Source: a virus
Direction: 5' to 3' (one strand)
DNA length: 26,292 nucleotides
Virus record (IMG/VR): IMGVR_UViG_3300033182_001465
Location: 1-26,292 of that record
Each line of letters starts with the position of its first letter. Position 1 is the stretch's first letter. Shown one piece after another: positions 4,747 through 25,452 of this stretch. The notes beneath the pieces are model-generated. The model saw only the letters and a list, made by a program, of their open reading frames with translations. It did no database searches and was not told the DNA's origin. The translations under genes and the position numbers were made by a program.

Positions 4747-4875
4747 TCAGTAAATGTATGGTGGCGAGTCATCCTTGCCGAGCATCCGCCTGATCGCCCA
4801 ACGAATCTTCAACTTCCAGATTGTCCACTTGAGTTTGAGGCGTTGAGTTCGTCCAATTCGGTGCCTTCGTACCAT
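4747..4875 (-). CDS. Small basic protein, 42 aa, last gene of the tailoring operon
   Basis: This short gene lies partly inside the 3' end of the upstream gene (67-base overlap). Its ATG at 4873-4875 has a perfect AAGGAG eight bases upstream, which strongly favours translation. The 42-aa product (MVRRHRIGRTQRLKLKW at the N-terminus, IRRMLGKDDSPPYIY at the C-terminus) has about fifteen Lys/Arg residues alternating with Trp, Ile and Leu between residues 12 and 31, an amphipathic pattern that could bind membranes or nucleic acid. It is the last gene of the minus-strand operon that begins at 13730. No family was recognised. Confidence 0.62.
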   Translation of the reverse strand: MVRRHRIGRTQRLKLKWTIWKLKIRWAIRRMLGKDDSPPYIY

Positions 4876-5912
4876 GGTTTCAACTCCTTGATCATGTCTG
4901 ATGTGATCTGTTGGCCCAACATTACTTCAGCAAAATGAATTTGACTGTGTAAACCTGGATGGGCAAGGCTGTGCTCACCTCGGTCAAAAGCGCTCGTCCA
5001 CGCCACGGCTTGCCATTCAGACTGTGGCTCCAGATCGCAACATCCGTCAACGCCGACCCAAGGGGCTGGCGTTGGAAAACCCCACCCTAGATAATCGCTC
5101 GGTGGGACATGCTCCAGTCCTTTGTCGGAAATATATGTAGGCCATTCTTGCAGTTCGGGGTAGCCAATTTTTCTAAAAATGTCTTGCGAACTTCCGTGCC
5201 ATGAGAAAAGTTTGACGGTGATGTTTAGGCTGTTGCAGAGGGCAACCAGTAGATCGTATGCGGCAAGGTTGCGGTCAACCAAAAGATCAACGGGAAGTGT
5301 CCCCACCGTGTTATCTGATGCTGTGTGAATATAAACCTCGTGGTCACGCTTACTGTGATTGAATGTGGTGTAGCAGTTAATTTCGTCATTGTAAGCCAAC
5401 GTTTCACGACCGAGGCGCCCATCAGTGGACAACGCAATTATGTATGCACGCCAAATATCAGGCGACAGCAGATACACGCTTTTCGGCACACCATACTTAC
5501 CTATGTGATGGACAAATCTTTCAACTTGCGTCCATATGTTGTGGCCAGTTCGAGACACGTTGTTCACCGTTTGGCCGGTGATGTGCTCAACGATGGCTGG
5601 CCAAGTGAAGTTGTAAGGAAGGCCCATTCCTGCGGTCACCGAGCATCCCAACGTCACGATGTCAGGTGAATGATGATGTTCGTGCCAATGATGACCATCT
5701 GAATTCACACGATAACGAACCAATCGAGTAAACCGATCATCCTCAACGGCTTGATGCAACCAGTCGCCCATTGAGTATCCAACTGTCTCGCCGTTTAAAG
5801 CGATGCTAAACAAACGAGTTTTCTGAAAATCATCACCATTGTAATGGGGATAAAATTCCAGACTTGGATGACGCAACATGGCGAGATTGTCAATTAATCG
5901 TTCAGGTTTCAT
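4809..5912 (-). CDS. SGNH/GDSL-hydrolase-like protein, copy 2
   Basis: This 367-aa protein is paralogous to the gene at 5909-6988. A block-I-like motif TLGCSVTAGMGLP places the nucleophile at Ser91, NVSRTG supplies the oxyanion glycine (about 123), and the C-terminal HPGLHSQIHFAE places a candidate catalytic His at 318. The usual DxxH aspartate three residues before that His is missing; a conserved Asp sits eight residues upstream instead (FDRGEH). SGNH enzymes are esterases, lipases or O-acyl-transfer/deacetylation enzymes. In this operon, next to a carbamoyltransferase and oxygenases, an acyl-ester step on a glycan or small molecule is the natural guess. The ATG overlaps the upstream stop in an ATGA. 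Confidence 0.68.
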   Translation of the reverse strand: MKPERLIDNLAMLRHPSLEFYPHYNGDDFQKTRLFSIALNGETVGYSMGDWLHQAVEDDRFTRLVRYRVNSDGHHWHEHHHSPDIVTLGCSVTAGMGLPYNFTWPAIVEHITGQTVNNVSRTGHNIWTQVERFVHHIGKYGVPKSVYLLSPDIWRAYIIALSTDGRLGRETLAYNDEINCYTTFNHSKRDHEVYIHTASDNTVGTLPVDLLVDRNLAAYDLLVALCNSLNITVKLFSWHGSSQDIFRKIGYPELQEWPTYISDKGLEHVPPSDYLGWGFPTPAPWVGVDGCCDLEPQSEWQAVAWTSAFDRGEHSLAHPGLHSQIHFAEVMLGQQITSDMIKELKPWYEGTELDELNASNSSGQSGS

Positions 5913-6988
5913 GGGTTCTTCGGTTCCAAATCAGTCCCTTGAAACCATGGGGATATATCAGCAACGTGTTCTTGTTGGATCTTCAACCGAGACAAGGTTT
6001 CAGCAAAATGTATCTGACTGTGAAGGCCGGGATGAGGACGTAGCCAACTTTCCGTTCGATCTAAAGCCACGGTCCACGCCTTCTCCTGCCAGTATCCGAT
6101 CGGATACAAATCGCAACATGCTGCGCCACCCATTGACCGAACACTCGCAGGGAACTCCCAAAAAGAAAGCATCTCAGAGTGTTCGTCAGACTGCGGGTTG
6201 CCAGCCAAAGCAACCCAACTGGGCGGATCAACAACACATTCATATCCGCATTGACGGAAACAATCCAATGTCTGATCGTGCCACGAAAACAAGCGGACAT
6301 CAATGTCACTAGTTTCCGCAAACATCATCAGCATCTCAAGCGACTTCAGATTTTTATCAACGATGACGTCAACAGGAATCAGCGTCTTTTCACCTGACAG
6401 AGATTGGTGGACGTACGGCTCGTAACTGATCGTTGTGTAACCGTTTTGGCTGTGATCGTACAAAAGTGTGCGCTGATACCAGTCGTCTGGCCCGACAGCC
6501 AGCTGCCCACGGAAAATGTCTGGAGACAGTATCCAAATACTTTTTGGCAAACCGTACTTACGCATATTGCCGAATGCTCGGTAAACCTGATGATCAATGG
6601 ACGAGCCTGCTCGAGCAACACTGTTAACCGTCTTACCCAAAACACTTCGGCAAATATCCGGCCACGTAAAGTTGTACGGCAAACCCATCCCAGAGGTAAT
6701 TGAGCAGCCCAATGCAAGAACATCTGGATTGGCCACGTTGTCTGGACCGTGTGTTCCATCTGAGTTCACCCAGTAAAGACAGTCTTTGTGACCGCCATCA
6801 AATTCAGGAGAGCCGTGTGTGTAGTGATATTCGGCGCCTCGACTCCAACGAAAACGCTGACCATTCCGTGGGTCGGTTGCGCGAAGAACCTTTTGGAAGT
6901 CGCGGGTTTTTAGGTTCGGATAAAGAGTCTTGTCACTTGTGCGAAGCACTTGCGGGTCAATGCTTCCACTGAGTGAAGCAAACTTCAC
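5909..6988 (-). CDS. SGNH/GDSL-hydrolase-like protein, copy 1
   Basis: This 359-aa protein shares with its neighbour the motifs LGCS-x-T-x-GMGLPYNFTWP (nucleophile Ser96), YG-x-PKS, LSPDI, RLFSWH, CCDL, HPGLHSQIHFAE and a PW-x-x-GT C-terminus, so the pair arose by tandem duplication. The start was set at the GTG 6986-6988, not an earlier GTG at 7024. It overlaps the carbamoyltransferase stop as GTGA, has AAGGA seven bases upstream, and gives an N-terminus (MKFASL) that aligns with that of the paralogue (MKPERL). The DxxH aspartate is absent here too (LRPHPG), with a conserved Asp nine residues before the His. A hydrolase or acyltransferase role is inferred from the fold motifs only. Confidence 0.7.
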   Translation of the reverse strand: MKFASLSGSIDPQVLRTSDKTLYPNLKTRDFQKVLRATDPRNGQRFRWSRGAEYHYTHGSPEFDGGHKDCLYWVNSDGTHGPDNVANPDVLALGCSITSGMGLPYNFTWPDICRSVLGKTVNSVARAGSSIDHQVYRAFGNMRKYGLPKSIWILSPDIFRGQLAVGPDDWYQRTLLYDHSQNGYTTISYEPYVHQSLSGEKTLIPVDVIVDKNLKSLEMLMMFAETSDIDVRLFSWHDQTLDCFRQCGYECVVDPPSWVALAGNPQSDEHSEMLSFWEFPASVRSMGGAACCDLYPIGYWQEKAWTVALDRTESWLRPHPGLHSQIHFAETLSRLKIQQEHVADISPWFQGTDLEPKNP

Positions 6989-8433
6989 GAGACGATCCTT
7001 ACATGCGGGTTGTCGTACTTCCACCGATCCACATCAAAAATGTCGTCAAGCAAAGGTTGATTCTTCACGTTGAGACTCGTGTTGAGGAGCACAGGTACCC
7101 CCGTGTGGGTTTTCCATCGTTGAAGAACTTCATACAGTCCAAAATGTTGATATTGGTTGACGGTCTGAACGCGGCTCGTTCCGTCCTTGTGTATGACTGC
7201 CGGTAAAAGATCTGGCCGTTTGCAGCGCACAGCGAACTGCATGTACGGCGAGGGTCGGTCTAGGTCAAAATATGTGGCGGCGTCTTCCTCAAGAACAACA
7301 GGAGCGAAAGGTCGAAATGGTTCACGCTTTTTGACAGTATTGACTTTGTCTTTCATTTCTGGCGTTCGTGGATCCGCCAAGATGCTCCGATTGCCGAGAG
7401 CTCGTGGACCGAACTCCGCTTTTCCGTTAGCAACTGCAACGATTCCGTTTGTCGTCAACTCGTCAACTATTTGGGCAATGGGATACGAGCCGCCGACGTT
7501 GTGACCGAGATACGGGCCTTCCCAACGGACATGCTCACCGTGGACGGCTAAGGCTGCGCCGAGACTGGAGCCTGCGTCTCCGGGGTTTGGCATGATCCAC
7601 ACCTCGTCCCACATGTCCCACAACATGCGGTTCGCCACACAATTGAGCGCACAGCCACCGGTAAAAACCAAATTCTTGGACGGGCTGTCTCGGCGGATTC
7701 GGTGCATGATTTCGCAAAGCCGTTCCTCGTAAACCTGTTGTACGGCAGCGGCGATGTCGTATTTGTCTTGATCCGTGGCAATTTTGTGCGGCCAGTCGGG
7801 GATGCCGTAGTGGAGATTGTATGGCTGGTAGTGGAATTTGGGAAAGTATTCCTCTACCTCCAGTATGTACCGTTCCGGTCGCCCGAAAGCGGCCATGCCC
7901 ATCAGGATGTATTCTTCAATACCCGGTGTCAGTCCGAGCAGTTTTGTGAAAGCGCTGTAAAACAGGCCGAAACTTGTCGGGTAGCGGAGACCGCCACGGC
8001 GCACCATGCTGGTGCTCTTGGCGTCCCAGATGCTCAGCGTGTCAAACTCGCCGATGGCGTCAATTACTACGATTGTTGCGTTATCAAACGTTGACGTGTA
8101 ATAGCCGGCGGCGGCATGGCTTTTGTGGTGACCGACTTGAATTTCTGGGATGCGTTTTAGTGCGGGCGACGTCTTTGTGTACAGGTGGTCGTAGGAGCCG
8201 TTGATGCCGCCGTGCACGAATCGGCGCCATCGTTTCTTGGTTCGATTTTCAAAGTACGCAATCACATCCGGTTGACCGAATTGCATTGCTGAGCCGAATA
8301 GTTCGTGTGGATTGGAGAACGAGTGTTTTTCTTTGTTTACTCTCTCGCCGTGCGTGGCAAACACGATCCGGCCGCCTTCCACGACCGAGACGGCAGCGTC
8401 GTGAGACGAGTCGTTGATCCCCAGAATTCTCAT
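6985..8433 (-). CDS. NodU/CmcH-family O-carbamoyltransferase
   Basis: This 482-aa protein has both halves of the family. The N-terminal ASKHA-type Kae1-like domain has GINDSSHDAA (5-14), VGHHKSHAAAGYY (100-112, metal-binding His), IDAIGEFD (124-131) and FTGGCALN (257-264). The C-terminal YrdC-like domain has GKAEFGPRALGNRSILADPR (337-356), PFRPFAPVV (372-380) and NTSLNVKNQP (451-460). Family members make carbamoyl-adenylate from carbamoyl phosphate and ATP and pass the carbamoyl group to a hydroxyl on a sugar or antibiotic, as in Nod-factor, cephamycin and tobramycin pathways. It is shorter than typical members (about 550-600 aa) because the tail after NTSLNV is brief. It overlaps the P450 stop as ATGA and the next SGNH gene as GTGA. 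Confidence 0.93.
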   Translation of the reverse strand: MRILGINDSSHDAAVSVVEGGRIVFATHGERVNKEKHSFSNPHELFGSAMQFGQPDVIAYFENRTKKRWRRFVHGGINGSYDHLYTKTSPALKRIPEIQVGHHKSHAAAGYYTSTFDNATIVVIDAIGEFDTLSIWDAKSTSMVRRGGLRYPTSFGLFYSAFTKLLGLTPGIEEYILMGMAAFGRPERYILEVEEYFPKFHYQPYNLHYGIPDWPHKIATDQDKYDIAAAVQQVYEERLCEIMHRIRRDSPSKNLVFTGGCALNCVANRMLWDMWDEVWIMPNPGDAGSSLGAALAVHGEHVRWEGPYLGHNVGGSYPIAQIVDELTTNGIVAVANGKAEFGPRALGNRSILADPRTPEMKDKVNTVKKREPFRPFAPVVLEEDAATYFDLDRPSPYMQFAVRCKRPDLLPAVIHKDGTSRVQTVNQYQHFGLYEVLQRWKTHTGVPVLLNTSLNVKNQPLLDDIFDVDRWKYDNPHVRIVS

Positions 8434-9689
8434 GTTGCTTTTGCTGGCAGGGACACCCAGCCGTTACCCCACTTGGACGGACAATAAACTGATTGATCGT
8501 ACAGCAGCGTGCACTGCGGGATCCGCTCCATCATTGCTTTTAGCGCAGCACGCATTTCGGCCCGCGCCAAGTTGGCTCCCAAACAATAGTGTGGGTTTGG
8601 TGCCCCAAACCCGAGGTGTTTTGGCTTTACGGGTCGCCGAATATTGAATGACAGCGGATCGTCAAACGTGTTGGGGTCGGCGTTTGCCCCGGTATACCAC
8701 AGGCATACTCTCTCGCCTGCCTTGATTTCCTGTCCTCCTACTTCAACATCGGCAATCGCCGTCCTAGTGAAGTGCATGATGGGCGTGTGATGACGCACAA
8801 TTTCTTCTATTGCGGAATCAATCAGCTCATCAAAGTTGGCACGAAGGTCATCTTCTTGATCACGGTATTCCTGAAAGTAATGAAAAGCGGAACTAACTGC
8901 GATTGCTGTTGTCTCAACACCAGAGATGACAAGGAGAATGAAGAAGTCCACGAATTCTTCAACGGTGAGTGGCCGGATTCCATTTACTGGTCTCAGTAGT
9001 TGTGAAGTTAAGTCGTCGGTCGGATTTTTGAGTCGAACTTCAGCGAGTTGTATTCCATACTTATGCAGTTTACGTGTTGATTTCACCCATTTGATGAGGT
9101 CGCCACTGCGATGGGCGGGGTGGGCTTCGCCCATCATGTATGCGACAATGTCGCTAATCCAAGGCTGATCTTCTTCCGGAATTCCCATCATCCCGCACGT
9201 AACCATTGAAGGAATTCTGTTTGCGAAATCGGCACGGACATCTGCGCCCCCATTGCGGAGTTTGTTTACGAAAAAGTCCGTGTTCCGATCAACAATACGC
9301 TCTATTGAATCAACAAGACTTCTAATACTTTTCGGTGTGAAAGCTGCGGATACTAGATCACGAAGTTCGTGATGCTCAGGATTGTCCAACGTCACAATAG
9401 AGCCGTTAAACGGCATCAACGCACGATGGCGTTCCGTGATCGCCTCGTTGTCTTGCGCAAGAATAACCCCATATTTGCTGGAAAACGAATCGTTGTCGGT
9501 TCCCACACGAACGACATGATCGTACGAGGTCAACGCCCAGTACGATCCTTTTGGATTGTTTCCCTCAGTGAACTTGACCGGTTTCTGTTCAGACGCCAAC
9601 CACGAAAAGCGCCTTTTTCTCGCCTCGTGCGCCTGTATGGAATCGGATAAGTCGTCAATCCATTGATCACTCTGGAGGTTCAAATCCAC
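8430..9689 (-). CDS. Cytochrome P450
   Basis: This is a 419-aa soluble bacterial-type cytochrome P450. Visible motifs are HHELRDLVSAAFTP in the C-helix region (about 106-119), ISGVETTA in the I-helix (255-262, oxygen activation), EIVR as the ExxR motif (296-299) and the haem loop GFGAPNPHYCLGANLAR with the thiolate ligand Cys369. The haem loop resembles bacterial class I enzymes of the CYP125/CYP142 type. The start was set at GTG 9687-9689, seven bases after AAGGAG, and overlaps the upstream oxygenase by 23 bases; an earlier TTG at 9734 lacks such support. No ferredoxin or reductase gene is visible in the window, so electrons would have to come from the host. P450 genes are very rare in phages. 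Confidence 0.95.
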   Translation of the reverse strand: MDLNLQSDQWIDDLSDSIQAHEARKRRFSWLASEQKPVKFTEGNNPKGSYWALTSYDHVVRVGTDNDSFSSKYGVILAQDNEAITERHRALMPFNGSIVTLDNPEHHELRDLVSAAFTPKSIRSLVDSIERIVDRNTDFFVNKLRNGGADVRADFANRIPSMVTCGMMGIPEEDQPWISDIVAYMMGEAHPAHRSGDLIKWVKSTRKLHKYGIQLAEVRLKNPTDDLTSQLLRPVNGIRPLTVEEFVDFFILLVISGVETTAIAVSSAFHYFQEYRDQEDDLRANFDELIDSAIEEIVRHHTPIMHFTRTAIADVEVGGQEIKAGERVCLWYTGANADPNTFDDPLSFNIRRPVKPKHLGFGAPNPHYCLGANLARAEMRAALKAMMERIPQCTLLYDQSVYCPSKWGNGWVSLPAKAT

Positions 9690-10395
9690 CGTAAATCTCC
9701 TTGGGTGGGCGAAGTTCGTCAGCGATCCTGTCAATGTCTTCAGGCGGAATCATGTCCATGACCTCGGCCACGTTCTCAACATCGTAAAACCAGCCTGTAG
9801 GAACCGACGGCAAAAGGTTATGAACCAAAGTTCGTGCTCGAGGCCAGAATGATGTGATGACGTACCGCTCGCCTGAGATTACGGGATTGACCCCGTGCAT
9901 GTACTGATGCGACGACGGGAACGCAATCATTAGTCCTGGACGAGGAATGATCTGCACCCCGTAATTCTGAAAGTAGATTTCTCCGCCCTCAAAGTCGCCG
10001 TTTAGGTATGTGACCGTGGCAAAATCGTTATGGTGAAGGGACAGGCTTGAGTGCCGTTGAGTGAACATCACCTCGCCGTCTGGTCGCCCGATGTCGGAAT
10101 GAGGTGACTGGTAGTCGCCGAGAACCCACTTTCGGAACCCCATTCGGCGGGTCTGTACCAACGTTTCGCCGAAGAACGCTTCTAGCGCTTTCTTTTTTTC
10201 CGCCCTGAACTTCTGAATGATTGGTTCAACGTGCGGTGGCGCAGAGGTCGCTAAAAGCTGCCAGTGTTGCCGTTCGGAAAAGTCGGCATGTTCTGGTTGA
10301 GTCCACTCTGCTTCATCCCGCATGTAGTGGTACAGGACTTCAACGTCGTGACGTTCAATGAAGTTTTCGCAGACAAGAAGTTGCGGAAGGATCAT
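9667..10395 (-). CDS. P4H-like Fe(II)/2-oxoglutarate oxygenase
   Basis: This 242-aa protein is of the prolyl-4-hydroxylase-like class. Iron ligands are His99 and Asp101 (SPHSD) and His167 (MHGV); Arg177 in SGERYVITSF should bind the 2-oxoglutarate carboxylate. The strand TYLNGDFEGGEIYF (129-142) is shared, with variations, by six other oxygenases of the window. The gene sits between the acidic protein (ATGA overlap) and the P450. Position in the operon suggests it acts on the same substrate pathway as the P450 and carbamoyltransferase, but P4H-like phage enzymes have also been proposed to hydroxylate proteins, so this is open. Confidence 0.9.
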   Translation of the reverse strand: MILPQLLVCENFIERHDVEVLYHYMRDEAEWTQPEHADFSERQHWQLLATSAPPHVEPIIQKFRAEKKKALEAFFGETLVQTRRMGFRKWVLGDYQSPHSDIGRPDGEVMFTQRHSSLSLHHNDFATVTYLNGDFEGGEIYFQNYGVQIIPRPGLMIAFPSSHQYMHGVNPVISGERYVITSFWPRARTLVHNLLPSVPTGWFYDVENVAEVMDMIPPEDIDRIADELRPPKEIYGGFEPPE

Positions 10396-10766
10396 TCCTC
10401 AACGACGGCATCAACTTCGTCGTCATCTCCTGCTTCAGCCGCATCTTCCTCAGCGGCCTCTTCCTCGGGCGTGAGATAGGCGTAAAGCACGATGCGGGCG
10501 TGACGCTCCAACGTGGGAAGTTCCAATGGGAATGGGAGATCCGCTTCTAGGTGACCCAAAATTTTGTATGCGATCGTAGAGTCGGCAATTGAGGCACCGA
10601 TCGGCTTCAGGAGACGGAAATTTGTTCCATCCCAACGGATCTCGTAAGCCCCAGACTCGTGCTCAACCAAAACGGTTTGCGCATGAGAGGTTTTTTCCAA
10701 CTCACCGATCTGGCTAGTGCCGGCGTCGGGAAGTTCGGTCTCAGTTGTGCTCGTCTTCTTGCTCAT
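10392..10766 (-). CDS. Acidic-tailed hypothetical protein
   Basis: This 124-aa protein has a polar N-terminus (about 1-30), a compact middle with beta-type pattern (TVLVEHESGAYEIRWDGTNFRLLKPIG is part of it, 31-57) and a strongly acidic tail from about 99 (TPEEEAAEEDAAEAGDDDEV). The central GAYEIRWDGTNFRLL could be a small beta-sheet binding module. It overlaps the previous gene by 26 bases and the next by ATGA, so it belongs to the operon. Acidic tails can mimic DNA or mediate subunit contacts; nothing specific was recognised. Confidence 0.72.
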   Translation of the reverse strand: MSKKTSTTETELPDAGTSQIGELEKTSHAQTVLVEHESGAYEIRWDGTNFRLLKPIGASIADSTIAYKILGHLEADLPFPLELPTLERHARIVLYAYLTPEEEAAEEDAAEAGDDDEVDAVVEE

Positions 10767-11538
10767 GGTCGCTCATGTTAGCAGTATCTGAACGTTGAGA
10801 AAGTGTGGGATCAACATTGAGTTTTGGTTTGATGGGCGTCGGATGACCCATCATCTCGTACACGAGTTCCACGTTCTCGTAATGGTGCCACCATGTCTCC
10901 GGCAGGGAGTTCTGCATCAAGGTCCGTGACATCGTTGCGCATCGAATCCAGTGCGTCGCCGAAGTCAGTCGCTCGCCGGACGTAATTTCAGTTACACCGT
11001 GCTCATAACCCGATGCACATGGGAAGGCGACGAGCATTCCTTGCTCGGGCTGCAACTCAAACCCGATTCCGGGGAAGTGGAGCGTTCCGCCCTCAAAATC
11101 CTCGTTGTAATAAAGAACTGTTGCGACTTCAAGGTATCCGCGTGGGACGAGTTCAACTTCGCCGAAGCGGACCGGCTCAAAGTCCAACAGCAGATCTTGT
11201 CTGAATCCGTCTCCGTGGCCTCCCATGTGGGTTCCTTCAACCCATTTGCGGAATGCTGGTGCCGGCTTGTACAAGAAGTCGTCACCGAATTCGTACTCAA
11301 TCGTCTTGTGCATCCGCTGGTTCAGATACTTGTAGACAGCGCCAAGATTGTTAGCGGCCCAATATTCGTGGTTGTAAGTGAAGTGCGGGGGCTGACCCTC
11401 CATGTGGTCGGATCCTTGGATCTTGATCCAGAACTCGTCGCTCTGGATGTGAGACAGCCAAAAAGCGCATTCCTCTCTGTCTAGAAAGTTAGGAATGACG
11501 CGAATGAGGTTCGGGTTCCTGTTAGCCCAGTTTGACAT
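10741..11538 (-). CDS. P4H-like Fe(II)/2-oxoglutarate oxygenase
   Basis: This 265-aa protein carries the facial triad His108, Asp110 (GGHGDGF) and His180 (EHGV), with Arg190 in SGERLTSATHW as the 2-oxoglutarate contact. YYNEDFEGGTLHF (143-155) is the shared P4H-like strand. It resembles the neighbour at 9667-10395 along its whole length, including the segment after the distal His (RTLMQNSLPETWWHHYENV here, RTLVHNLLPSVPTGWFYDV there), so the two are diverged duplicates. The ATG at 11538 has AAGGAG upstream. A His-, Asp- and Glu-rich tail (SDHEQEDEHN) follows the catalytic domain. The substrate is unknown. Confidence 0.9.
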   Translation of the reverse strand: MSNWANRNPNLIRVIPNFLDREECAFWLSHIQSDEFWIKIQGSDHMEGQPPHFTYNHEYWAANNLGAVYKYLNQRMHKTIEYEFGDDFLYKPAPAFRKWVEGTHMGGHGDGFRQDLLLDFEPVRFGEVELVPRGYLEVATVLYYNEDFEGGTLHFPGIGFELQPEQGMLVAFPCASGYEHGVTEITSGERLTSATHWIRCATMSRTLMQNSLPETWWHHYENVELVYEMMGHPTPIKPKLNVDPTLSQRSDTANMSDHEQEDEHN

Positions 11539-12076
11539 CGCCGCTCCTTACAGCTCCACGACTAAGGATAACACTCGTTTTTGTGGCACTGACCAGCAAC
11601 TTGGTGGATTCGTTGTGGATCATTATTGCGCCGTGAACAGGGACAATGACTGGCCGTGACAGATGTCCTACGGGGAAGGCGAGTATCAGGTCCGGTCCGA
11701 TGGGCAGAAACACCGTGTGTGAACAATTCTCTGCGGGAGGCGGCGGGATCCACAGCAGTTTGTCATTTTCGGGCGCCACTGTCTCGGTTGCCGCCCACGA
11801 ACCGATCTGTTCCATGTCAAAATGCTTTAACATGTTTTTGGCAATGTCTCGTTCAAAATGATGAAGAGCATCAAATACGACTTTGTAATGTTTATTGCCC
11901 GAGAACTCAATATAGGACAAATCGCAATAGTTGAACTTTGGGAAACTTCCCACCATTCGTGGCGCAAAGCGTCCGCAGAGTTCGCCGTCTTCTGACGTTT
12001 TCCGCAACGTCTCTTCAACAGTGAACGAAACAGCAGTGCAGAAATTTTGAAGCACTGGTGCTTGTTGTTCTGTCAT
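11522..12076 (-). CDS. Unknown operon protein, 184 aa
   Basis: This 184-aa protein was not matched to a family. The second half is beta-rich with a proline run (KLLWIPPPPAENC, about 106-118) followed by HTVFLPIGPDLILAFPVGH, PVIVPVHGAIMIHNE and TKLLVSATKTSVILSRG, a strand pattern that could fit a cupin-like or jelly-roll barrel. No clear HxD plus distal His triad is present, so it is not called as an oxygenase. It overlaps the TauD-like gene by ATGA and the following oxygenase by 17 bases, which ties it firmly to the operon. It could be an accessory or substrate-binding subunit, but this is a guess. Confidence 0.7.
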   Translation of the reverse strand: MTEQQAPVLQNFCTAVSFTVEETLRKTSEDGELCGRFAPRMVGSFPKFNYCDLSYIEFSGNKHYKVVFDALHHFERDIAKNMLKHFDMEQIGSWAATETVAPENDKLLWIPPPPAENCSHTVFLPIGPDLILAFPVGHLSRPVIVPVHGAIMIHNESTKLLVSATKTSVILSRGAVRSGDVKLG

Positions 12077-13083
12077 GACGGAGGTTGCCCGATTTCGGAC
12101 AAATACTGCTGATATTCGTCTTCAGAAAGAGTTGTGGTCGGCTCTGATCCTACGCCGAATGGGAAACACCAGTATCCCCAAAACGAGCGTTGACCTGGCT
12201 CAAAACCTCCGTGGACTCCGTGAGCCATCCGGAACAGGTCTGGCACCACAACATCCCATTGCTCCCACTCCCACCAAATCTGATTGTCCGGATTTTTGAT
12301 CTCCGAGGTGACCCAATCCATTATCTCTTTGAAAAATTCTTCGTCTTTTTCTGTCGGCAGGTTGCCGTCAATTTTGAGGAGGTAATCCTGAAGTCCCCAA
12401 GCGGCTTTGCAGGGGCAAGTTCGCAACGTCGGTTCGCCCGTGTGCGGACTATCTTCAATTGCTTTCCGAGCAAAAGAGCCGACGATTTGGCCAGTGTCCT
12501 CGGTCCAAATCACGTCATGCCCAGCATTGCGCTTCCACATGAACTGCTTTGTGAATTCCTCTTGCGAGGCAGGAATGCTTTGCCAGTTCGGAAGATGAAT
12601 AATGAGCGCAGCCTCCAAAAACGACCGGTATTCGGTCGGAAGCTTGTCGCAGAGCGCCTGCATATCTACGAAGCCGGTGCTCCCAGTGCCCTTCGGTGCC
12701 GTGAAGTGATACATAAACCAAGCAGCAGCACGCTGAGTGTGCTCAAGGGAAACTCCCTCTAGGTGCCATTGGAGGACCTCCACATCCGGTGCGTTGTCGT
12801 TCTGATCAATCAACTGTTGGATTCGTGGGTCGTGAACTTGGTGGTAGCGCCAACTATCGTAACTTTTCGTTTCTGCGTTAATTCGGTTCCATGAAGGCGT
12901 AAAGCCGACGTTGTTCCCGATTGCTGTAAGCAATTCGATGATTTCAAAGTCACCGTACTGGCTTCGATCCTCGTCGGGATTGCGAAAAGCGACGATTCCG
13001 CGTTCAAGGAACTTCGCTGTTGCCGTTGTTGGGCGGGTAGCGATATCTAGAAGTGGCTGCGGAAAAGTAAAGTCATTGATCAT
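12073..13083 (-). CDS. TauD/TfdA-like Fe(II)/2-oxoglutarate dioxygenase with HxE motif
   Basis: This 336-aa protein follows the TauD/TfdA layout: a metal site at WHLEG (His107, Glu109), then TGSTGFVDMQALCDKLP (133-149), which matches the GxTxFxDM segment of the family, and a C-terminal WDVVVPDLFRMAHGVHGGF with His288 or His291 as distal ligand and Arg299 in PGQRSFW. The first acidic ligand is Glu instead of the usual Asp. HxE facial triads are known in some 2OG oxygenases (for example clavaminate synthase and asparagine oxygenase), so activity is plausible. An inserted region of about 60 residues (150-220) contains CPCK. The ATG has GAGGAAG upstream and overlaps the GPx-like gene. Confidence 0.82.
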   Translation of the reverse strand: MINDFTFPQPLLDIATRPTTATAKFLERGIVAFRNPDEDRSQYGDFEIIELLTAIGNNVGFTPSWNRINAETKSYDSWRYHQVHDPRIQQLIDQNDNAPDVEVLQWHLEGVSLEHTQRAAAWFMYHFTAPKGTGSTGFVDMQALCDKLPTEYRSFLEAALIIHLPNWQSIPASQEEFTKQFMWKRNAGHDVIWTEDTGQIVGSFARKAIEDSPHTGEPTLRTCPCKAAWGLQDYLLKIDGNLPTEKDEEFFKEIMDWVTSEIKNPDNQIWWEWEQWDVVVPDLFRMAHGVHGGFEPGQRSFWGYWCFPFGVGSEPTTTLSEDEYQQYLSEIGQPPS

Positions 13084-13730
13084 GCTTCCTCATCAAGAAA
13101 CAGTTCAATCGCAGCCCGGATTCGCTTGAGAGCCTCAGCTGGGGAAAAGTTGGCGTATCCTGTCTCAAAGTTTGCCGGCAGGATGCTTCCGTTGGTAAAG
13201 CGTGCCACTCGTTTGCCGTCACGGGAAACAACAAACTTTTCGAAGTTTCCACGGATTTCCCCGGCTTCTACACCGAGGCGTTTGAACAGATCGTGCGGAG
13301 TTTGCTCTGGCTCATCGTCTCGGTTGTGGCGGGAGGCCAACAGCTCTGTGAACGGAAGTCGGATCCGGTAATGCTGATATGCGAAACGATGGCATTCTTC
13401 GGCAGTTGACCGAGAATCCTTGAAATCTCCGTATCCGAACTCACAATAATCATTAGTTGGCACGCACACGATCTCAAAGTCACGATCTTGGTAGTCGTAC
13501 CGCAAAACTTGGAGCATCGGATACTGCATTGAGTTTCCGCATTCGCCAGTGACATTCACGATCATTGTCACTTTTCCATGTCGGTCAGCCAAGCAATCAT
13601 CTTGGCCACCGACATCCTTGACTTTTACGTCATACACCGATTTTCCGTCTGGGGTGTCCGTCAAGTGGCCCTCACGGCGGAGGTAATCCTCTAACTCAGA
13701 ACGATTTTGGATTCCGTCAATGGTCTGCAT
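13080..13730 (-). CDS. Glutathione-peroxidase-family protein with altered catalytic tetrad
   Basis: This 216-aa protein, first gene of the tailoring operon, has the thioredoxin-fold pattern of glutathione/thioredoxin peroxidases: SVYDVKVKDVGG (31-42), GKVTMIVNVTGECG with peroxidatic Cys64, DFEIVCVPTNDY (84-95), LFKRLGVEAGEIRGNFEKF (148-166) and SRDGKRVARF. In the family the tetrad is Cys, Gln, Trp and Asn. Here the Cys (64) and Asn (162) remain, but the Gln position reads Asp94 and the Trp position reads Gly161. The ATG at 13728-13730 has AAGGAG five bases upstream, so an in-frame extension to 13913 is not used. It could reduce peroxides formed by the neighbouring oxygenases or have shifted to another thiol reaction. 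Confidence 0.8.
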   Translation of the reverse strand: MQTIDGIQNRSELEDYLRREGHLTDTPDGKSVYDVKVKDVGGQDDCLADRHGKVTMIVNVTGECGNSMQYPMLQVLRYDYQDRDFEIVCVPTNDYCEFGYGDFKDSRSTAEECHRFAYQHYRIRLPFTELLASRHNRDDEPEQTPHDLFKRLGVEAGEIRGNFEKFVVSRDGKRVARFTNGSILPANFETGYANFSPAEALKRIRAAIELFLDEEA

Positions 13731-19601: not shown

Positions 19602-19810
19602 AGTTCCACGATTTTCAGAACACCGTCATGTCCGAGTATTCATCTTGGCGAAAAATTGACTCCACAATGCGGCTAGGTCAGGTGTGCTTCAACCTGCTAA
19701 CAGTGTTTAACCCAAAGATCGCCAATGAGATCCGAGCAACACCTCTGGATCCTTTTTACAAGGATTACGTGTCGCAGGATACGTGGGAGTACCTTCAGGA
19801 ACGTTGGTAG
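19598..19810 (+). CDS. Hypothetical protein, 70 aa
   Basis: This 70-aa protein begins with GTG in a GTGA overlap and a GAGGTGG ribosome-binding site about six bases upstream. It has a basic, aromatic composition (MKFHDFQNTVMSEYSSWRK, then FNLLTVFNPKIANEI and DPFYKDY) and ends WEYLQERW. A longer reading frame from 19319 runs through the divergent gene and is not credible. It overlaps the convergent oxygenase gene by 16 bases. The layout of aromatic and charged residues fits a small helical protein; function unknown. Confidence 0.6.
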   Translation: MKFHDFQNTVMSEYSSWRKIDSTMRLGQVCFNLLTVFNPKIANEIRATPLDPFYKDYVSQDTWEYLQERW

Positions 19811-20448
19811 TTTACGGCGTTGGTGCGAGTGCCATGGCCGAAGAACTCTAGGTACGACACACGTTTTCCGTTCGTCACATCTTTGACGGCGTGCGTGCCG
19901 AGATATCCGCTGGAGTACACGATTGCTGACCCGAACGTCGGCGAAATCTCACAGTCTGGATAGCGGAACGCTAGTTCCCCACCTTCACAACGATCGTCCA
20001 ACACAAGTGAGGCAGTCAAAACGTTCTGGATAGAAGCTTCGCTTGCCTCGCCGTCACCGACCAGATTGTCATGATGGAAGCCCATACCGGCCGATATCCC
20101 ATATGAAGCTAAGTGTGGATCTGTCCGCCACCAAACACTCTTTTTGACGTCGGGATATGCCTCCATATAGGTATCAACCGCATATCCGACGGCTTCATAG
20201 ATTTTCTGAAAGATCTGACGGTCGTGTTCGTCGCACTTTTCTGTCAGGTGAAGTGCCCGTCTTGGCGACGCCTCAATATCTGCCGCCTCAAAACGGTATC
20301 CGCCTCGATTCAGGTACGAGCCGTCTTCTTGAAGAAAATAGTCTTCTGGTTGCTCGTCAAACCGACGTTGAATCCATCCGTCCAACTCCTCACGATCGTG
20401 CGTGAAAATGTCTGGGAACTCAACGACACCGAAGCCGTGGTTGATCAT
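19795..20448 (-). CDS. P4H-like Fe(II)/2-oxoglutarate oxygenase
   Basis: This 217-aa protein has His125 and Asp127 (GFHHDNL), the shared strand LDDRCEGGELAF (150-161), distal His186 (GTHAV) and Arg196 (NGKRVSYL). It ends with EFFGHGTRTNAVNY, like the FGHG segment of the oxygenase at 16130-17137. It is the last gene of the 25452-to-19795 operon and starts in a TAATG overlap with the Rossmann-domain gene. The substrate is unknown. Confidence 0.88.
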   Translation of the reverse strand: MINHGFGVVEFPDIFTHDREELDGWIQRRFDEQPEDYFLQEDGSYLNRGGYRFEAADIEASPRRALHLTEKCDEHDRQIFQKIYEAVGYAVDTYMEAYPDVKKSVWWRTDPHLASYGISAGMGFHHDNLVGDGEASEASIQNVLTASLVLDDRCEGGELAFRYPDCEISPTFGSAIVYSSGYLGTHAVKDVTNGKRVSYLEFFGHGTRTNAVNYQRS

Positions 20449-21044
20449 TAAACCTCAAGGCCGGCAGCCAAGTTTTCAGCACGCTCCCGATCATTTCGGA
20501 GTCGCTTGAACTTCTTTGCGGTGATTCCGTCACGATCCTCGGTGTACATGATGTCCCAGTACCCACAGGTAAACAGTGACCCGACATCGTGGGCGCGCTC
20601 CCCAGAAAGATACATGGTGTGCTCATCGGTGTAGCCCTGAACTCCAGGGTACGGCCATCCGTACAATCCGGCCTCAACGTACGAAACTCCGCCGTCGTTC
20701 AGAATCTTTGCCATCTCCTGCTCGGATTCCTCACCCCAGAGGCCGTTGGCATCAACGTAAATGCCACCCCACTTCCGGTCGCGTGCCATCTCTGCGTAAT
20801 CAACGCACGCACCGCCGTTGACGATGCAGAAAATCACGTCGCACTGGTCAAACACTGCGTCAATCGTTCCAAGATCAATCATGTGGAACTCGGCCGCGCG
20901 TTCCACAGTGACGGAACTTCGGCCTTCAGACGCCCAGTAGGGGATGTTGCCGCTTCCGTGTAGGCCGCGGGCGATCGTGCCGCCCATCTTGCCCGGATGA
21001 AGAATGCCGACCTTAGCCGACTGGGGGGAGAATTGAGTATCCAT
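20448..21044 (-). CDS. Stand-alone NAD(P)-binding domain of the 6-phosphogluconate dehydrogenase-like type
   Basis: This protein of about 198 aa has a Rossmann nucleotide-binding start VGILHPGKMGGTIARGL (about 12-28), the GxxxxGxMG form typical of 3-hydroxyisobutyrate and 6-phosphogluconate dehydrogenases, followed by DVIFCIVNGG (69-78), YVDANGLWG (95-103) and VEAGLYGWPYPG (122-133). The all-helical C-terminal domain of the family is missing, so it ends about 100 residues early. It may be a domain that works with a partner, or a reduced enzyme. The start was set at ATG 21042-21044, which overlaps the upstream gene by 32 bases; an ATG at 21059 is also possible. It lies between two 2OG oxygenase genes. 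Confidence 0.72.
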   Translation of the reverse strand: MDTQFSPQSAKVGILHPGKMGGTIARGLHGSGNIPYWASEGRSSVTVERAAEFHMIDLGTIDAVFDQCDVIFCIVNGGACVDYAEMARDRKWGGIYVDANGLWGEESEQEMAKILNDGGVSYVEAGLYGWPYPGVQGYTDEHTMYLSGERAHDVGSLFTCGYWDIMYTEDRDGITAKKFKRLRNDRERAENLAAGLEV

Positions 21045-21837
21045 CTTCCATGTACACATTCGTTGAGATTGAAGCCATTGCGGGGTTTTCCCGAGGGTCA
21101 ACCACGTTTTCGCTTACTGCCGGATTGGGTGTTCCCTGACAATACCACCCGAGGTACGAGTAGCGCCACCCTCCGGTGACGGGTCGAACCTCGTGGGCCG
21201 CCATGTAGTTGGACGGGAAGAACAAGATGTCGCCCTTCTTGATGTCCTTATGAGTGATGTCTAGATACTCAAAGTGGTGTTCACCTCCGGTGAAATTGGT
21301 TCCGTCCAGTTCTTCTTCAGTTTCAACACGGTCATTGAGGTAAGCGACAACAGACACGCTGTTTCTGGTGGCGAGCTGATCCCGCGGGTGCGGTCTGCCG
21401 TATTCGTAGTCAGTGCTGACGTCGGCGTGCATCCCAAGGAAACCGCCGACTGGGTAGGCAACGATGTGGCTTTTGATTTTCCACCAGATGCATTTCCCGG
21501 CGATCGGGAATTTGTTCAGGTAGTCAAGGAGGCAGGCGTCACGCTGTTCTTCAATGTGGTTGAGGGTGTCAATAACTTCCTGTCGGCTGTCTTGATGAAC
21601 AAAGCTACCTCGCCACGGCATTTCGTCAAGCGACCGTCTGGAGAAGAAGTATTTGCTGCGGTTGATGTAGCCCTCTTCCCCGGTGATCGGATCAACACCT
21701 GGTTCGTACATCGTGTCGCGTTCCTTCTGGAGTGTTTCCTTGCAGTAGGACCGCATCCAGTCCCAGTCCAGTTCAAAGGCGTTTTTGTATAGAACGACGC
21801 CTCCGCCGAGATGTTCACCGATTTTTGTCATGTTCAT
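21013..21837 (-). CDS. P4H-like Fe(II)/2-oxoglutarate oxygenase
   Basis: This 274-aa protein carries His137 and Asp139 (GMHADVS), strand NFTGGEHHFEYLD (181-193), GDILFFPSNYMAAHEV with distal His215, and Arg225 in GGWRYSYLGWY. A distinct N-terminal 110 residues and a short insertion (ETEEELDGT, 172-180) separate it from its relatives. Two candidate starts, ATG 21837 and ATG 21831, differ by two residues. It overlaps the TauD fusion gene by 23 bases. The conserved GW-x-YSYLGWY end suggests a functional barrel. Confidence 0.9.
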   Translation of the reverse strand: MNMTKIGEHLGGGVVLYKNAFELDWDWMRSYCKETLQKERDTMYEPGVDPITGEEGYINRSKYFFSRRSLDEMPWRGSFVHQDSRQEVIDTLNHIEEQRDACLLDYLNKFPIAGKCIWWKIKSHIVAYPVGGFLGMHADVSTDYEYGRPHPRDQLATRNSVSVVAYLNDRVETEEELDGTNFTGGEHHFEYLDITHKDIKKGDILFFPSNYMAAHEVRPVTGGWRYSYLGWYCQGTPNPAVSENVVDPRENPAMASISTNVYMEDGYSILPPVG

Positions 21838-23401
21838 CCAAATCTAGCATGTATCCGAGATAATCATGAATGCGTTCAATCACGCGCCGTCGATCATCGT
21901 TGTCCTTCAGGTGATTGAAACATCCGTAGACGGTATCTACGGCGAACTGAACCAAGAAGTCCTCTGGTGGGTCGTCGTCCCCCCAGTTGATGTACTGAAT
22001 AAACGGCAGATTTTGGTATGACCATGGCCGGAACTGAAGTGGCTGGTGATCAAACCAATCAGGGTAGTGCCATGCGTGTCCTGCGTGACGCATGTCTGGA
22101 TGCCAGTTGACGTAACCCTTGATGTGTGGGATGGCGTTCCGAGTGCAGTCCTCGTTGTCGTACTGGAATAGGTCAAAATCTGGTTCCCAGAAGCAGTGGA
22201 AGTCACCATTTCGAGAGCAGAGATACATGGTGCCGGCAACAGGACAGTCCGGCAGGCAATGCTTTTTGTAGCGCATGAGATTGCGAAACACGGCGTTGTT
22301 CTCGTCCTGCATAACGATGTAGACGTTGAAAAGGTCGTCGTTGACCTCGTGCGCTAGTCGGTTGACGTCTTCTCGCCAGTCGCCGTTCTCGTCGGCGATC
22401 ACGAAAAGTGTGACGGTCTGGTACAAATGATCAACTTCTTCAAGTGCGTAGAAGCCTTTGGTGAACACCAGTGGAATGTGATCTGGGTTGGGGCCGGAGG
22501 TTGAGTCTTTCTCCACGCCTTCGTAACGGATCGTGTCTCCGAAGTTCGGGTTGCGTGAATCCTCAGTGTCCGGATCGTAGAACGGTTGCTCGTCGCCGAT
22601 TTGGAATCGATCAAAACGTCGTTCTGATCTTTCCCATCCCGGAGCGAAGGCGTGGAGCACTGCCCTGTTGTCCCACACCAGCACGTCGCCCACTTCCCAC
22701 TGCCATGTCCAGCGGTTTTTCTGGTTGGCGGCGTACTGCTGGACGTTTTCACGAACTTCCTCAAACCAGAGGGGTGGCGGATCTTGATCGGTCTCAAGTG
22801 CTGTGGATGGACCTGTCCAATACAGCATCGTTTCGCCAGTGTCGGGATGCGTTCGCAACGCAGGGTGAGAGATCACGGTTCGCCCGACGTCGTCACCCGG
22901 TTCGGCGTTCCCCGTTATTCCTAGCAGGCGGGCGGTCTGCAAGCGTTCTTTCAGATTGTCCGGTAGCTGACGGTACAGATCTGTTAGGGAAAGGAACAGC
23001 GTGTCGCCGTAGCCAGGTTCAACGTCAAACTTGATCATTTTCATTGACGTGAGCACTGGCGGCTTTTCCAAAAACGGGTTGTCTACATGCCATGCGAACC
23101 TGATGAATCGCTCAACGTTCTCTTTCTCTTCAACGTTGGGGATTGACGCATGATGCTGATCGGCGAGCATTCCGGGTTCACCGTTCGGCATGTCGGTGCC
23201 CAACTCGCCGTAATACAAAGCTTCCATCAACAGCAGGTGTTCAGATGAAGACGGGTTCATTCCCTTGAACCCGATGACCTTGTTTCGCTTCAAGATTTCT
23301 TTGAAGTAGAGAGGATCGTTGAGGACGTCGCTGACTTTGACTCCTTGAACTTTGAATCCGAGATCTCCTAGACGTAAACCGGCTGCGATTCCACCGTGCA
23401 T
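21815..23401 (-). CDS. TauD-like dioxygenase fused to a C-terminal domain of unknown function
   Basis: This 528-aa protein has an N-terminal TauD/TfdA-like oxygenase (about 20-270): FAWHVDNPF with His105 and Asp107, PGYGDTLFLSLTDLYRQLP (129-147), DVLVWDNRAVLHAFAPGW with His250, and Arg261/262. The remaining 220 residues are not matched to a known domain. They include a strand-rich part (TVTLFVIADENGDW, 330-343) and a Cys/Trp/His-rich part (HCLPDCPVAGTMYLCSRNG and GYVNWHPDMRHAGHAWHYP). This extra domain could be a substrate or metal-binding partner. The ATG shares one base with the stop of the DUF6065 gene (TAATG). Confidence 0.86.
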   Translation of the reverse strand: MHGGIAAGLRLGDLGFKVQGVKVSDVLNDPLYFKEILKRNKVIGFKGMNPSSSEHLLLMEALYYGELGTDMPNGEPGMLADQHHASIPNVEEKENVERFIRFAWHVDNPFLEKPPVLTSMKMIKFDVEPGYGDTLFLSLTDLYRQLPDNLKERLQTARLLGITGNAEPGDDVGRTVISHPALRTHPDTGETMLYWTGPSTALETDQDPPPLWFEEVRENVQQYAANQKNRWTWQWEVGDVLVWDNRAVLHAFAPGWERSERRFDRFQIGDEQPFYDPDTEDSRNPNFGDTIRYEGVEKDSTSGPNPDHIPLVFTKGFYALEEVDHLYQTVTLFVIADENGDWREDVNRLAHEVNDDLFNVYIVMQDENNAVFRNLMRYKKHCLPDCPVAGTMYLCSRNGDFHCFWEPDFDLFQYDNEDCTRNAIPHIKGYVNWHPDMRHAGHAWHYPDWFDHQPLQFRPWSYQNLPFIQYINWGDDDPPEDFLVQFAVDTVYGCFNHLKDNDDRRRVIERIHDYLGYMLDLDEHDKNR

Positions 23402-24129
23402 TACTGAGGCTCCTCGAGTTTGACGTGGCCGTCAAATGCCGGCCCGATTCTGTTCCCGTCCGCATCCAAACCGGTGCGTATGCCACCCATCCATGTCCAC
23501 GGCTGCTCACGAAGTTTAGTCATTTTCGCATCGCTGTATCTTTGACGTGCGTCGTTGATTTCGTTTTGATCTTCGTCCCACATGTTTTTCACGTTGAACT
23601 TAACACTGGGCATCAAATTGGTGTCGTAGAACTGGAAAAACATGAACGGTGATCCCGCAGGAAACGTAACCGGCTTGCCGATCTTGGTGATTTTCCAGTT
23701 CATATTGAACTCGTCCGGCCACCAGTCGGATGGAATATGGGCAGTTAGGGGTACGGCGCCATCCACAAAAAGATTGGGTGAACCGGATATCCATGTGGCT
23801 ATACCGGGCGGGGTGTGGAAGGTCCACCCCACAGCGAACGACATGATCCCGACGATTGACGGCACCACGATCGGCCGAGTGTAACTCTGGCCGTTGATCT
23901 CAAAATCCATGGTTTCGCCGGAGAGCACGCGGGGCACTGTCATTCCGCCGTCCCATTCGATGACGACATCCTGCTGAAGCACCATTTCCCAGCCGTTTAC
24001 GTTTGCCTCAGTAAGGGGAAGGCATTTGTAGGCATGTTTTTTGTAGGTGTCGTCCATCCAGTCGCGGCGTACTGTCGCTTGGCGGATCTCTGGGGGGTTC
24101 TGGTGGCTCCTGACGAGCGTTACTTCCAT
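23401..24129 (-). CDS. DUF6065 family protein
   Basis: This 242-aa protein has the hallmark sequence pattern of the DUF6065 family: RDWMDDTYKKHAYKCLPLTEANVNGWE (about 22-48), EWDGG (58-62), FHTPPGIATWISGSPN (104-119), WWPDEFNMNWKITKIGKPV (138-156) and PFMFFQFYD. Proteins of this family have no experimentally known function and occur in bacteria and phages. The start was set at ATG 24127-24129, just after the TGA of the upstream oxygenase; an extension to 24207 would lie inside that gene. It sits between a P4H-like oxygenase and the TauD fusion, so its role is probably in the same pathway. Confidence 0.82.
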   Translation of the reverse strand: MEVTLVRSHQNPPEIRQATVRRDWMDDTYKKHAYKCLPLTEANVNGWEMVLQQDVVIEWDGGMTVPRVLSGETMDFEINGQSYTRPIVVPSIVGIMSFAVGWTFHTPPGIATWISGSPNLFVDGAVPLTAHIPSDWWPDEFNMNWKITKIGKPVTFPAGSPFMFFQFYDTNLMPSVKFNVKNMWDEDQNEINDARQRYSDAKMTKLREQPWTWMGGIRTGLDADGNRIGPAFDGHVKLEEPQ

Positions 24130-24130
24130 A

Positions 24131-24826
24131 TCAGGCGAGCGCCATTGTCTGGCCTGAGGCAGACGGCAGACCGATCGGAGACGTGGACTGCTGGTATGGG
24201 CCGGCATGGTCCTGATGGTTCCGGTCGTTGTAGTCGTACATGGTGACCGCCGAGTACTTGGTGCCCTTCTTCACCGGTAGTGAGGCGTGGGCGTAGATGA
24301 AGTCGCTCGGGTGGATGATGACGTCACCGAACTCGGGGATGAACTTGAGGTTCTTGTACGGCATCATGTACTCGCCGCCCTCATAGTCGTCGTTGATGTA
24401 TCCGATTGCGGACACGGCACATGAGTACGAGAATCCTGAGTCGGGGTGAACGGCAAAGTGCTGCCCTTCACCGTACTTCACGAAGTTTGTTGCCTCCTCG
24501 TATTCGAGGGACAGGTTGTAGATGCTGGAGTAGTGGCGAACGCATTCGCGGACACCGGCGATGACTTCTTCGTACACGGCTCCAAGGTCAGTGAACTCGG
24601 CAGGTACGGGCATGTCGGCTTGCCGCAGTTTGAAGTCAAAGCAGTCTCGGTAGTCCTTCATGATGTCGTTGTCGCCGACCATTGCCTGCTTCCACGAGTA
24701 GTACTCGGTGGTGCTTCCGGCGAGGCCACGCTCAAGCCGTCCGACAAAGTCTGAGTCTTTTGGCCAGACGTCCTTGTACAGGATGATTCCGTCGGTGGGG
24801 ACTCCGAGGGTTCCGGCTACGCGCAT
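24131..24826 (-). CDS. P4H-like Fe(II)/2-oxoglutarate oxygenase with Lys in place of Arg
   Basis: This 231-aa protein has His127 and Asp129 (AVHPDSGFS), the shared strand YINDDYEGGEYMM (143-155), distal His180 (YAHASLPV) and Lys190 (KKGTKYSAVTMYDY) at the place where its relatives have Arg. A lysine can replace the 2OG-binding arginine in some members of the superfamily, so activity remains plausible. The start was set at ATG 24824-24826, five bases after GAGGT and just beyond the previous stop. A Gln/His-rich tail (NRNHQDHAGPYQQ) follows. Confidence 0.88.
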   Translation of the reverse strand: MRVAGTLGVPTDGIILYKDVWPKDSDFVGRLERGLAGSTTEYYSWKQAMVGDNDIMKDYRDCFDFKLRQADMPVPAEFTDLGAVYEEVIAGVRECVRHYSSIYNLSLEYEEATNFVKYGEGQHFAVHPDSGFSYSCAVSAIGYINDDYEGGEYMMPYKNLKFIPEFGDVIIHPSDFIYAHASLPVKKGTKYSAVTMYDYNDRNHQDHAGPYQQSTSPIGLPSASGQTMALA

Positions 24827-24828
24827 TG

Positions 24829-25452
24829 TTACCTCAATTCGGTGATGGTGTAGAACGACGGTGTGGTCCATCGCTCTCCGCTGATGATTTGCTTCACTCC
24901 GTGAAGATAGTGGACGTCACCCGGGTGAGCAACGGCCAGTCCGGGTTTGATGTCAAGTTCAATGTCAAACTCTGGGTAATAGAACTGTCCGCCTTCGAAT
25001 TCGTCGTTCCAGTAGATGATGGAGTTGATGTCGTAGGTCGGGAACGGGTTTGGCGTTCCATCGTTTAGTTGCTTGTCGGCGTGCGGTAGCTGTTCGTTAC
25101 CGGGTAGCCAACGGATCAGGACCGGTGGACGCTGATATAGACCAACATTAAATTTGCTTTCAAGTACCGCCTGCATCTTTCGGATGTACTTGTCAATTAG
25201 GGCGTGCATGTCTGGTGCGATACGTGCGAGAATGTCGCCACTGCACATCCGGTCCCACCAGTACGAGGCGTCGTAGATGCATTCGCCATCTTCGTTGAAC
25301 TCGTCGCCGCGCGGATTTTCCCACTCGTTGATCGTCGGGAAGAATGCTTGGAGCGTTTGCAGATCATCGTGGTCAACAAAGTCTTCAATGATGACAATGT
25401 TGTCTGCCGAGGTGCCGAAGTGGCCGGGTTCAATTAGGGATTTTTCCTCCAC
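24829..25452 (-). CDS. P4H-like Fe(II)/2-oxoglutarate oxygenase, first gene of its operon
   Basis: This 207-aa protein has His124 and Asp126 (LPHADKQ), strand YWNDEFEGGQFYY (147-159), distal His184 (YLHGVKQI) and Arg194 (SGERWTTPSFYTI). It is the shortest of the P4H-like set and has almost no extra domain. The GTG at 25452 has no ribosome-binding site but lies seven bases after a TACAGT box, which suggests a leaderless transcript. It is followed by the other oxygenase, DUF6065 and TauD fusion genes in one run, so this promoter probably starts that operon. Confidence 0.88.
   Translation of the reverse strand: MEEKSLIEPGHFGTSADNIVIIEDFVDHDDLQTLQAFFPTINEWENPRGDEFNEDGECIYDASYWWDRMCSGDILARIAPDMHALIDKYIRKMQAVLESKFNVGLYQRPPVLIRWLPGNEQLPHADKQLNDGTPNPFPTYDINSIIYWNDEFEGGQFYYPEFDIELDIKPGLAVAHPGDVHYLHGVKQIISGERWTTPSFYTITELR

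Follow-up and report, generated by a model that had tools for sequence, protein, structure and literature searches.

A conserved phage-borne operon joins 2-oxoglutarate oxygenases, a cytochrome P450, a carbamoyltransferase, and SGNH-fold proteins near tail genes

The IMG/VR record IMGVR_UViG_3300033182_001465, analyzed here over its whole length of 26,292 bases (the window), carries an operon of ten overlapping minus-strand genes that is real and phage borne. The operon runs from 13730 to 4809, each frame is free of internal stops, and successive genes overlap by 4, 4, 17, 26, 4, 68, 4, 40, and 4 bases. A sequence-only reading of this DNA had described a phage-borne tailoring operon of eleven end-to-end overlapping genes reaching down to 4747. 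The overlapping chain is borne out, but it consists of ten genes, the last stop lies at 4809, and 4747 to 4808 is intergenic. Pfam agrees with that reading on the families resembling TauD and prolyl 4-hydroxylase (P4H), both 2-oxoglutarate (2OG) oxygenases, and on the P450 and the carbamoyltransferase. In operon order, the genes are as follows.

13080..13730, minus strand: GPx-like thioredoxin-fold protein, starting at ATG 13730 (Pfam GSHPx, 4.6e-10; relatives at 61-76% on long phage contigs)
12073..13083, minus strand: TauD_1, TauD/TfdA-type 2OG oxygenase (Pfam TauD, 6.6e-17; 51-62% in syntenic contigs)
11522..12076, minus strand: h184, conserved protein, family not assigned (36-48% in syntenic contigs)
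10741..11538, minus strand: P4H_2, prolyl-4-hydroxylase-like 2OG oxygenase (2OG-FeII_Oxy_3, 3.9e-7; phrog_61, 4e-17)
10392..10766, minus strand: h124, small conserved partner protein (12-sequence alignment, AlphaFold model, gene neighbors)
9667..10395, minus strand: P4H_1, prolyl-hydroxylase-like 2OG oxygenase (2OG-FeII_Oxy_3, 4.1e-9)
8430..9734, minus strand: cytochrome P450, CYP124/125-like (Pfam p450, 1.9e-23)
6985..8433, minus strand: CarbTr, predicted NodU/TobZ/NovN-type O-carbamoyltransferase (Pfam N and C domains; phrog_1601, 2e-104)
5909..7024, minus strand: SGNH_B, predicted SGNH-fold hydrolase (alignment and predicted structure)
4809..5912, minus strand: SGNH_A, SGNH_B paralogue at 39% identity (sequence alignment)

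In two other contigs, 3300010389_003201 and 3300047562_005006, the ten genes are complete and unchanged in order, the opposite-strand flank is also present, and protein identity is 46 to 89%. A third, 3300033182_001600 (L009/L063), spans almost all of the window and has every gene of the ten but SGNH_A, and all three are syntenic with the window across both flanks. For every comparable gene, nonsynonymous differences (pN, 0.07 to 0.45) are far below synonymous ones (pS, 0.68 to 0.82). The operon genes are thus under purifying selection, and the conservation of their order exceeds chance. A chimera or misassembly is ruled out by the syntenic contigs, which come from three other metagenomes and match on both flanks. 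A bacterial chromosomal cluster is likewise ruled out, as the 80 best bacterial P450 relatives, the P450-ascertained loci being the ones surveyed, have no CarbTr or SGNH neighbors. These were the two outcomes that the sequence-only reading had named as fatal to its claim.

That reading had also suggested looking elsewhere for a P450 close to a NodU-type carbamoyltransferase. The two genes adjoin in two distinct arrangements, with the P450 before or after CarbTr, and the gene order recurs in phage contigs beside virion genes. The second arrangement, P4H-h124-CarbTr-P450-SGNH-SGNH, occurs on the 79-kb contig G007, which includes a terminase. Between arrangements, the P450s are only 32 to 34% identical, so the association is either old or was made twice. 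Contigs carrying CarbTr relatives at 56 to 65% identity reach 137 kb in length, and a terminase was found in 9 of the 15 contigs tested. Many relatives keep 2OG oxygenase, h124, CarbTr, and SGNH genes without a P450, which is not a defining member of the cassette. On one such contig (G003, 137 kb), genes for tail sheath (phrog_23, 9.7e-36), tape measure (phrog_167), and fibers come after the cassette, which lies at 126 to 132 kb; the Pfam sheath model had no match in 13 contigs, though the PHROG sheath family matched this one.

The cassette also changes position within the phage group, since the P450-CarbTr-SGNH insert is missing from its site in loci L010-L018, where the flanking 2OG oxygenase genes, the GPx-like gene, and TauD_1 are retained. 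In L074-L078, the cassette stands in line between a fiber gene plus a gene for a protein of FPP repeats and an operon containing another oxygenase, P4H_7. Close relatives are strongly mosaic, as judged from the identities of G013 and L009 to the window: the PhyH_a gene (window 8-817) is 98.8% identical to its counterpart in G013, yet the P450 is 45%, TauD_1 51%, and CarbTr 87% identical.

CarbTr is a predicted O-carbamoyltransferase of the NodU/TobZ family. It has the N-terminal Kae1-like domain (PF02543, 5.7e-39) and the C-terminal domain (PF16861, 2.8e-52), and its metal-site motif HHxxHA (H102/H103/H106) and the block EFGPRALGNRS (340-350) are invariant and aligned with NovN and GdmN. These two and TobZ are the nearest solved structures by profile. 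The nearest plasmid-borne relatives, from Mesorhizobium and Streptomyces (46 to 47% identity), adjoin an SGNH-like DUF6071 protein, and in a profile comparison, the GCSxT block of the Streptomyces DUF6071 aligned with that of the phage SGNH family (E 2.7e-5, probability 74.5). This suggests that CarbTr and SGNH form an older functional pair. Radical SAM and 2OG oxygenase genes lie near the Mesorhizobium pair (L317/L318 set). In two loci (L092 and L093), CarbTr is shortened to a 214-residue open reading frame (ORF; ~9542-10183) between P4H_1 and SGNH, possibly a recent loss, and in G012 the C-terminal domain is unmatched. The CarbTr frame of a 154-kb contig (G004:C1:130394-130864) holds one TAG, reflecting either stop-codon reassignment or a broken gene.

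The nearest solved structures to the P450 are CYP125 and CYP124. Its heme ligand (Cys384), E311xxR314, and the I-helix E274-T276 (ETT) are conserved in an alignment of five phage P450s. The bacterial relatives, at 32 to 37% identity, are nearly all actinobacterial. No Fer2 ferredoxin match over the cutoff was found in 17 contigs and no Fer4_15 match in 11, these contigs being partial, so electrons for the P450 may come from the host. Among isolate phages, the P450 had one weak match only, in an unverified fecal scaffold. A phage-encoded P450 does have a precedent in CYP102L1 of Mycobacterium phage Adler (Lamb et al. 2019, as cited in PMC9405906 and PMC11814380). According to those citing papers, the Adler enzyme was acquired from the host, whereas the window's P450 resembles CYP124/125, is divergent, and belongs to a conserved phage operon.

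SGNH_B is predicted to fold as an SGNH hydrolase. Its model (predicted local distance difference test [pLDDT], 86.4; predicted template modeling score, 0.88) matched GDSL/TesA hydrolases and CgnD by Foldseek, and a second structural aligner placed CgnD first (Z 13.6, root mean square deviation 3.6 over 212 residues; next Z 11.2). Ser108, in GCS replacing GDS, and the C-terminal His331 are invariant in an alignment of 29 SGNH sequences, none of which (0/29) matches the Pfam SGNH/GDSL models. SGNH_A and SGNH_B had no PHROG match, and no related SGNH protein was found in isolate phages. CgnD is a Ser-His-Asp hydrolase that frees the core of crocagin, a ribosomally synthesized and posttranslationally modified peptide (RiPP), from its leader peptide, and the crocagin cluster also encodes the 2OG oxygenase CgnC and the carbamoyltransferase CgnI (PMC10070186). 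The phage operon thus shares with it a 2OG oxygenase, a carbamoyltransferase, and, by fold only, a CgnD-like hydrolase. However, the crocagin cluster is bacterial, its peptide-binding proteins CgnB/CgnE and precursor CgnA were not recognized in the phage set, and the phage operon adds a P450, h124, and several further 2OG enzymes.

Between the two prolyl-hydroxylase-like genes lies h124, which adjoins P4H and CarbTr genes in many relatives. Like h184, it has no Pfam or PHROG match. AlphaFold predicts a folded core of beta sheet plus helix (pLDDT >90 over residues 31 to 100) with no PDB or viral structural match at E ≤ 0.001, together with an acidic tail and a poorly ordered but conserved N terminus in which Pro13 and Gln19 are invariant across 12 sequences. 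P4H_1 is a putative prolyl hydroxylase by its motifs and nearest structures: H99xD101, H167, and R177 are invariant in three sequences, so the 2OG residues are retained, and its closest solved structures are prolyl 3-hydroxylase 1 and procollagen-proline dioxygenase. Prolyl 3- and 4-hydroxylases are likewise the nearest solved relatives of P4H_7, but the similarity of both enzymes to them is weak overall (E 1e-4 to 3e-6). The GPx-like protein, called a peroxidase in the sequence-only reading, does match GSHPx and retains the cysteine, in GECG, but the usual glutathione peroxidase Gln and Trp appear, as read from the sequence, to have been replaced. A second GPx-like copy is found in many relatives.

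A second set of oxygenase genes and the FPP-repeat gene occupy the high end of the window.

19795..25452, minus strand: second 2OG oxygenase operon, encoding P4H_4, NAD-binding protein, P4H_5, TauD_2, DUF6065, P4H_6, and P4H_7 (Pfam; PHROGs for P4H_7)
25753..26292, minus strand: ([FHYW]FPP)n tetrapeptide-repeat protein, cut by the contig end

The order of this second operon is conserved in long phage contigs; past its oxygenase domain, TauD_2 (21815-23401, minus strand) continues for ~260 C-terminal residues that match nothing in Pfam. FPP-repeat proteins occur in loci L010-L062, L074-L078, and L199-L276, where DUF6065 and prolyl-hydroxylase-like 2OG oxygenases are frequent neighbors. Two tested examples terminate in the tail-fiber chaperone domain S74, and others have fn3 or PASTA-like domains. 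On G003 and G002, the repeat protein adjoins an ORF of 2,094 or 1,944 residues, with a tail-fiber family match in G003. A repeat is present in 45 of the 54 loci with a P4H_7 relative (at least 50%), at a median distance of 2 kb; in the other nine, P4H_7 is centered within ~2 kb of the locus start, and no locus has the repeat without P4H_7. As these loci were mostly found through GPx, the test was repeated starting from the DNA pattern alone. The pattern yielded 78 additional repeat loci, of which a few overlap contigs already examined; 56 of the 78 have a P4H relative (at least 60 bits) at a median nearest distance of 1.2 kb, 47 have P4H_7, and 38 have DUF6065; these counts stand without an IMG/VR background rate of P4H genes, and a random-pattern control scan returned nothing. 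In isolate phages, searched at a sensitivity different from that in IMG/VR, P4H_7 had 3 matches among 50,697 records, whereas DUF6065 and two representative repeat proteins had none. This co-occurrence, the fiber domains, and the likeness of P4H_7 and P4H_1 to prolyl hydroxylases make the FPP-repeat protein a well-motivated candidate substrate of the prolyl-hydroxylase-like enzymes, and such proteins could be a class of hydroxyproline-bearing phage fibers.

From the gene content and order, conservation, purifying selection, phage context, and folds, we propose a substrate, a set of chemical steps, and their order. The operon would tailor a protein or peptide that the phage itself encodes and that is most likely tail associated, a reading to which we give a probability of roughly 0.4. 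Side chains would gain hydroxyl groups through the P450 and the 2OG oxygenases; CarbTr, drawing on carbamoyl phosphate and ATP, would convert a hydroxyl to an O-carbamate; and SGNH_A and SGNH_B would cleave an ester or peptide bond by hydrolysis, in the manner of CgnD when crocagin matures. The protein h124 may be the substrate or a partner that presents it, and the FPP-repeat fiber protein may be the substrate of the sister operon's prolyl-hydroxylase-like enzymes. Action of the ten-gene operon on the FPP protein as well is a weaker proposal than FPP hydroxylation itself, drawn from the in-line placement in L074-L078, the tail-gene context, and the CgnD analogy. We hold only tentatively to the fuller picture of dedicated tail-fiber modification, in which prolyl-hydroxylase-like enzymes act on the ([FHYW]FPP)n fiber and, in some lineages, the P450, CarbTr, and SGNH enzymes decorate it further, yielding a hydroxylated, carbamoylated fiber.

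Several observations weigh against this proposal. Most characterized NodU-type enzymes modify sugars, polyketides, and other small molecules. The P450, CarbTr, and SGNH genes have no direct link to the FPP protein, and the repeat was not seen near CarbTr in most fetched CarbTr loci. CarbTr is absent from two long contigs that do contain the repeat and P4H_7 (G005 and G006), which would make it at most an optional decoration. The likeness of SGNH_B to CgnD is structural only: an SGNH profile searched against PDB sequences missed CgnD and gave just weak GDSL matches at the Ser block. No CgnB/CgnE homologue or obvious precursor was recognized in the operon, without a direct comparison to CgnB/CgnE, and none of the ten genes matches a Pfam peptidase.

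The strongest rival, itself doubtful, is that CarbTr and the SGNH enzymes modify a sugar, whether on a virion glycan, a nucleotide sugar, or a host surface glycan, and that the oxygenases share this target. It owes this place to the cyanophage CarbTr genes, which sit between tail-fiber and neck genes with those for phosphoheptose isomerase, heptose kinase/adenylyltransferase, and nucleotide-sugar epimerase. A glycosyltransferase and a UDP-glucose dehydrogenase are also encoded nearby in Pelagibacter phage HTVC008M, and carbohydrate esterases are common among SGNH enzymes. However, no glycosyltransferase or sugar-nucleotide gene was recognized in the window, and the cyanophage enzymes are only 26 to 29% identical to CarbTr. 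More broadly, the Nol-like carbamoyltransferases of phages (phrog_1601, from cyanophages and HTVC008M) belong to the same family, and some lie beside 2OG oxygenase and tail genes, but those of annotated isolates have 26 to 35% identity to CarbTr, sugar-gene neighbors, and no P450.

A phage-encoded small molecule or RiPP-like peptide that infected cells release is an unlikely product; it would be made from h124 or another precursor and matured through cleavage by an SGNH enzyme. P450s and carbamoyltransferases are common tailoring enzymes of antibiotic clusters, and the CgnD-like fold and the set of 2OG oxygenase, CarbTr, and SGNH parallel crocagin. Against this, no transporter or recognizable precursor was found, the folded core of h124 is unlike a typical leader-core peptide, and the operon lies among tail genes.

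Hypermodification of DNA, in which a TET/JBP-like 2OG enzyme would make 5-hydroxymethylcytosine (5hmC) and CarbTr would convert it to 5-carbamoyloxymethylcytosine to shield phage DNA, is very improbable. A phage-associated 5hmC carbamoyltransferase is known (metaGPA, PMC8670742) and shares the NodU/TobZ fold family and the phage context, and P4H_1 and P4H_2 have weak Tet_JBP matches (1e-4 and 3e-4, below the cutoff). However, CarbTr is only 26% identical to that enzyme and has GNR in place of its CNT, its thymidylate synthase/dCMP hydroxymethylase partner was found in none of 15 related contigs (which are partial), a C5-cytosine methylase was found in 1 of 17, and the SGNH proteins and P450 have no place in such a pathway. 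As remote is the view, published for cyanophages (PMC3037559), that the 2OG oxygenases mainly tune host 2-oxoglutarate or nitrogen signaling within a loose cluster of auxiliary metabolic genes, which leaves the conserved order, the overlaps, CarbTr, the SGNH pair, and the adjacent proline-rich fiber unexplained. Among the products listed in the sequence-only reading, a nucleotide is thus disfavored and a glycan retained; the protein or peptide preferred here, on the strength of context and the CgnD-like fold, was absent from that list.

Lists of auxiliary genes in marine phages have included carbamoyltransferases and 2OG oxygenases since 2010 (PMC3037559), and in the literature examined we found no demonstrated function for these enzymes. 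Nor did we find a description of this gene combination, most subscription papers lying outside the search. Phage CarbTr and 2OG oxygenase genes are known singly, and one phage P450 is cited in the literature; the operon unites the first two with a lineage-conserved phage P450, SGNH enzymes predicted to be CgnD-like, and tail genes. A concrete class of candidate substrate makes the question testable by mass spectrometry. If phages do modify their own fibers, the annotation of receptor-binding proteins and their production for use would change.

The nearest neighbor on the low side of the operon is as follows.

4106-4744, plus strand: PhyH-like gene

This flank also includes a Gly-rich fiber-like protein, a small phage protein, and two fiber-like genes, with matches to phrog_5906, phrog_7759, and phrog_2295. 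On the high side, plus-strand hypothetical genes lead to P4H_3 and then to the second minus-strand 2OG oxygenase operon with DUF6065. By Pfam and PHROGs, the 26-kb window encodes eleven 2OG oxygenases, eight of them outside the ten-gene operon.

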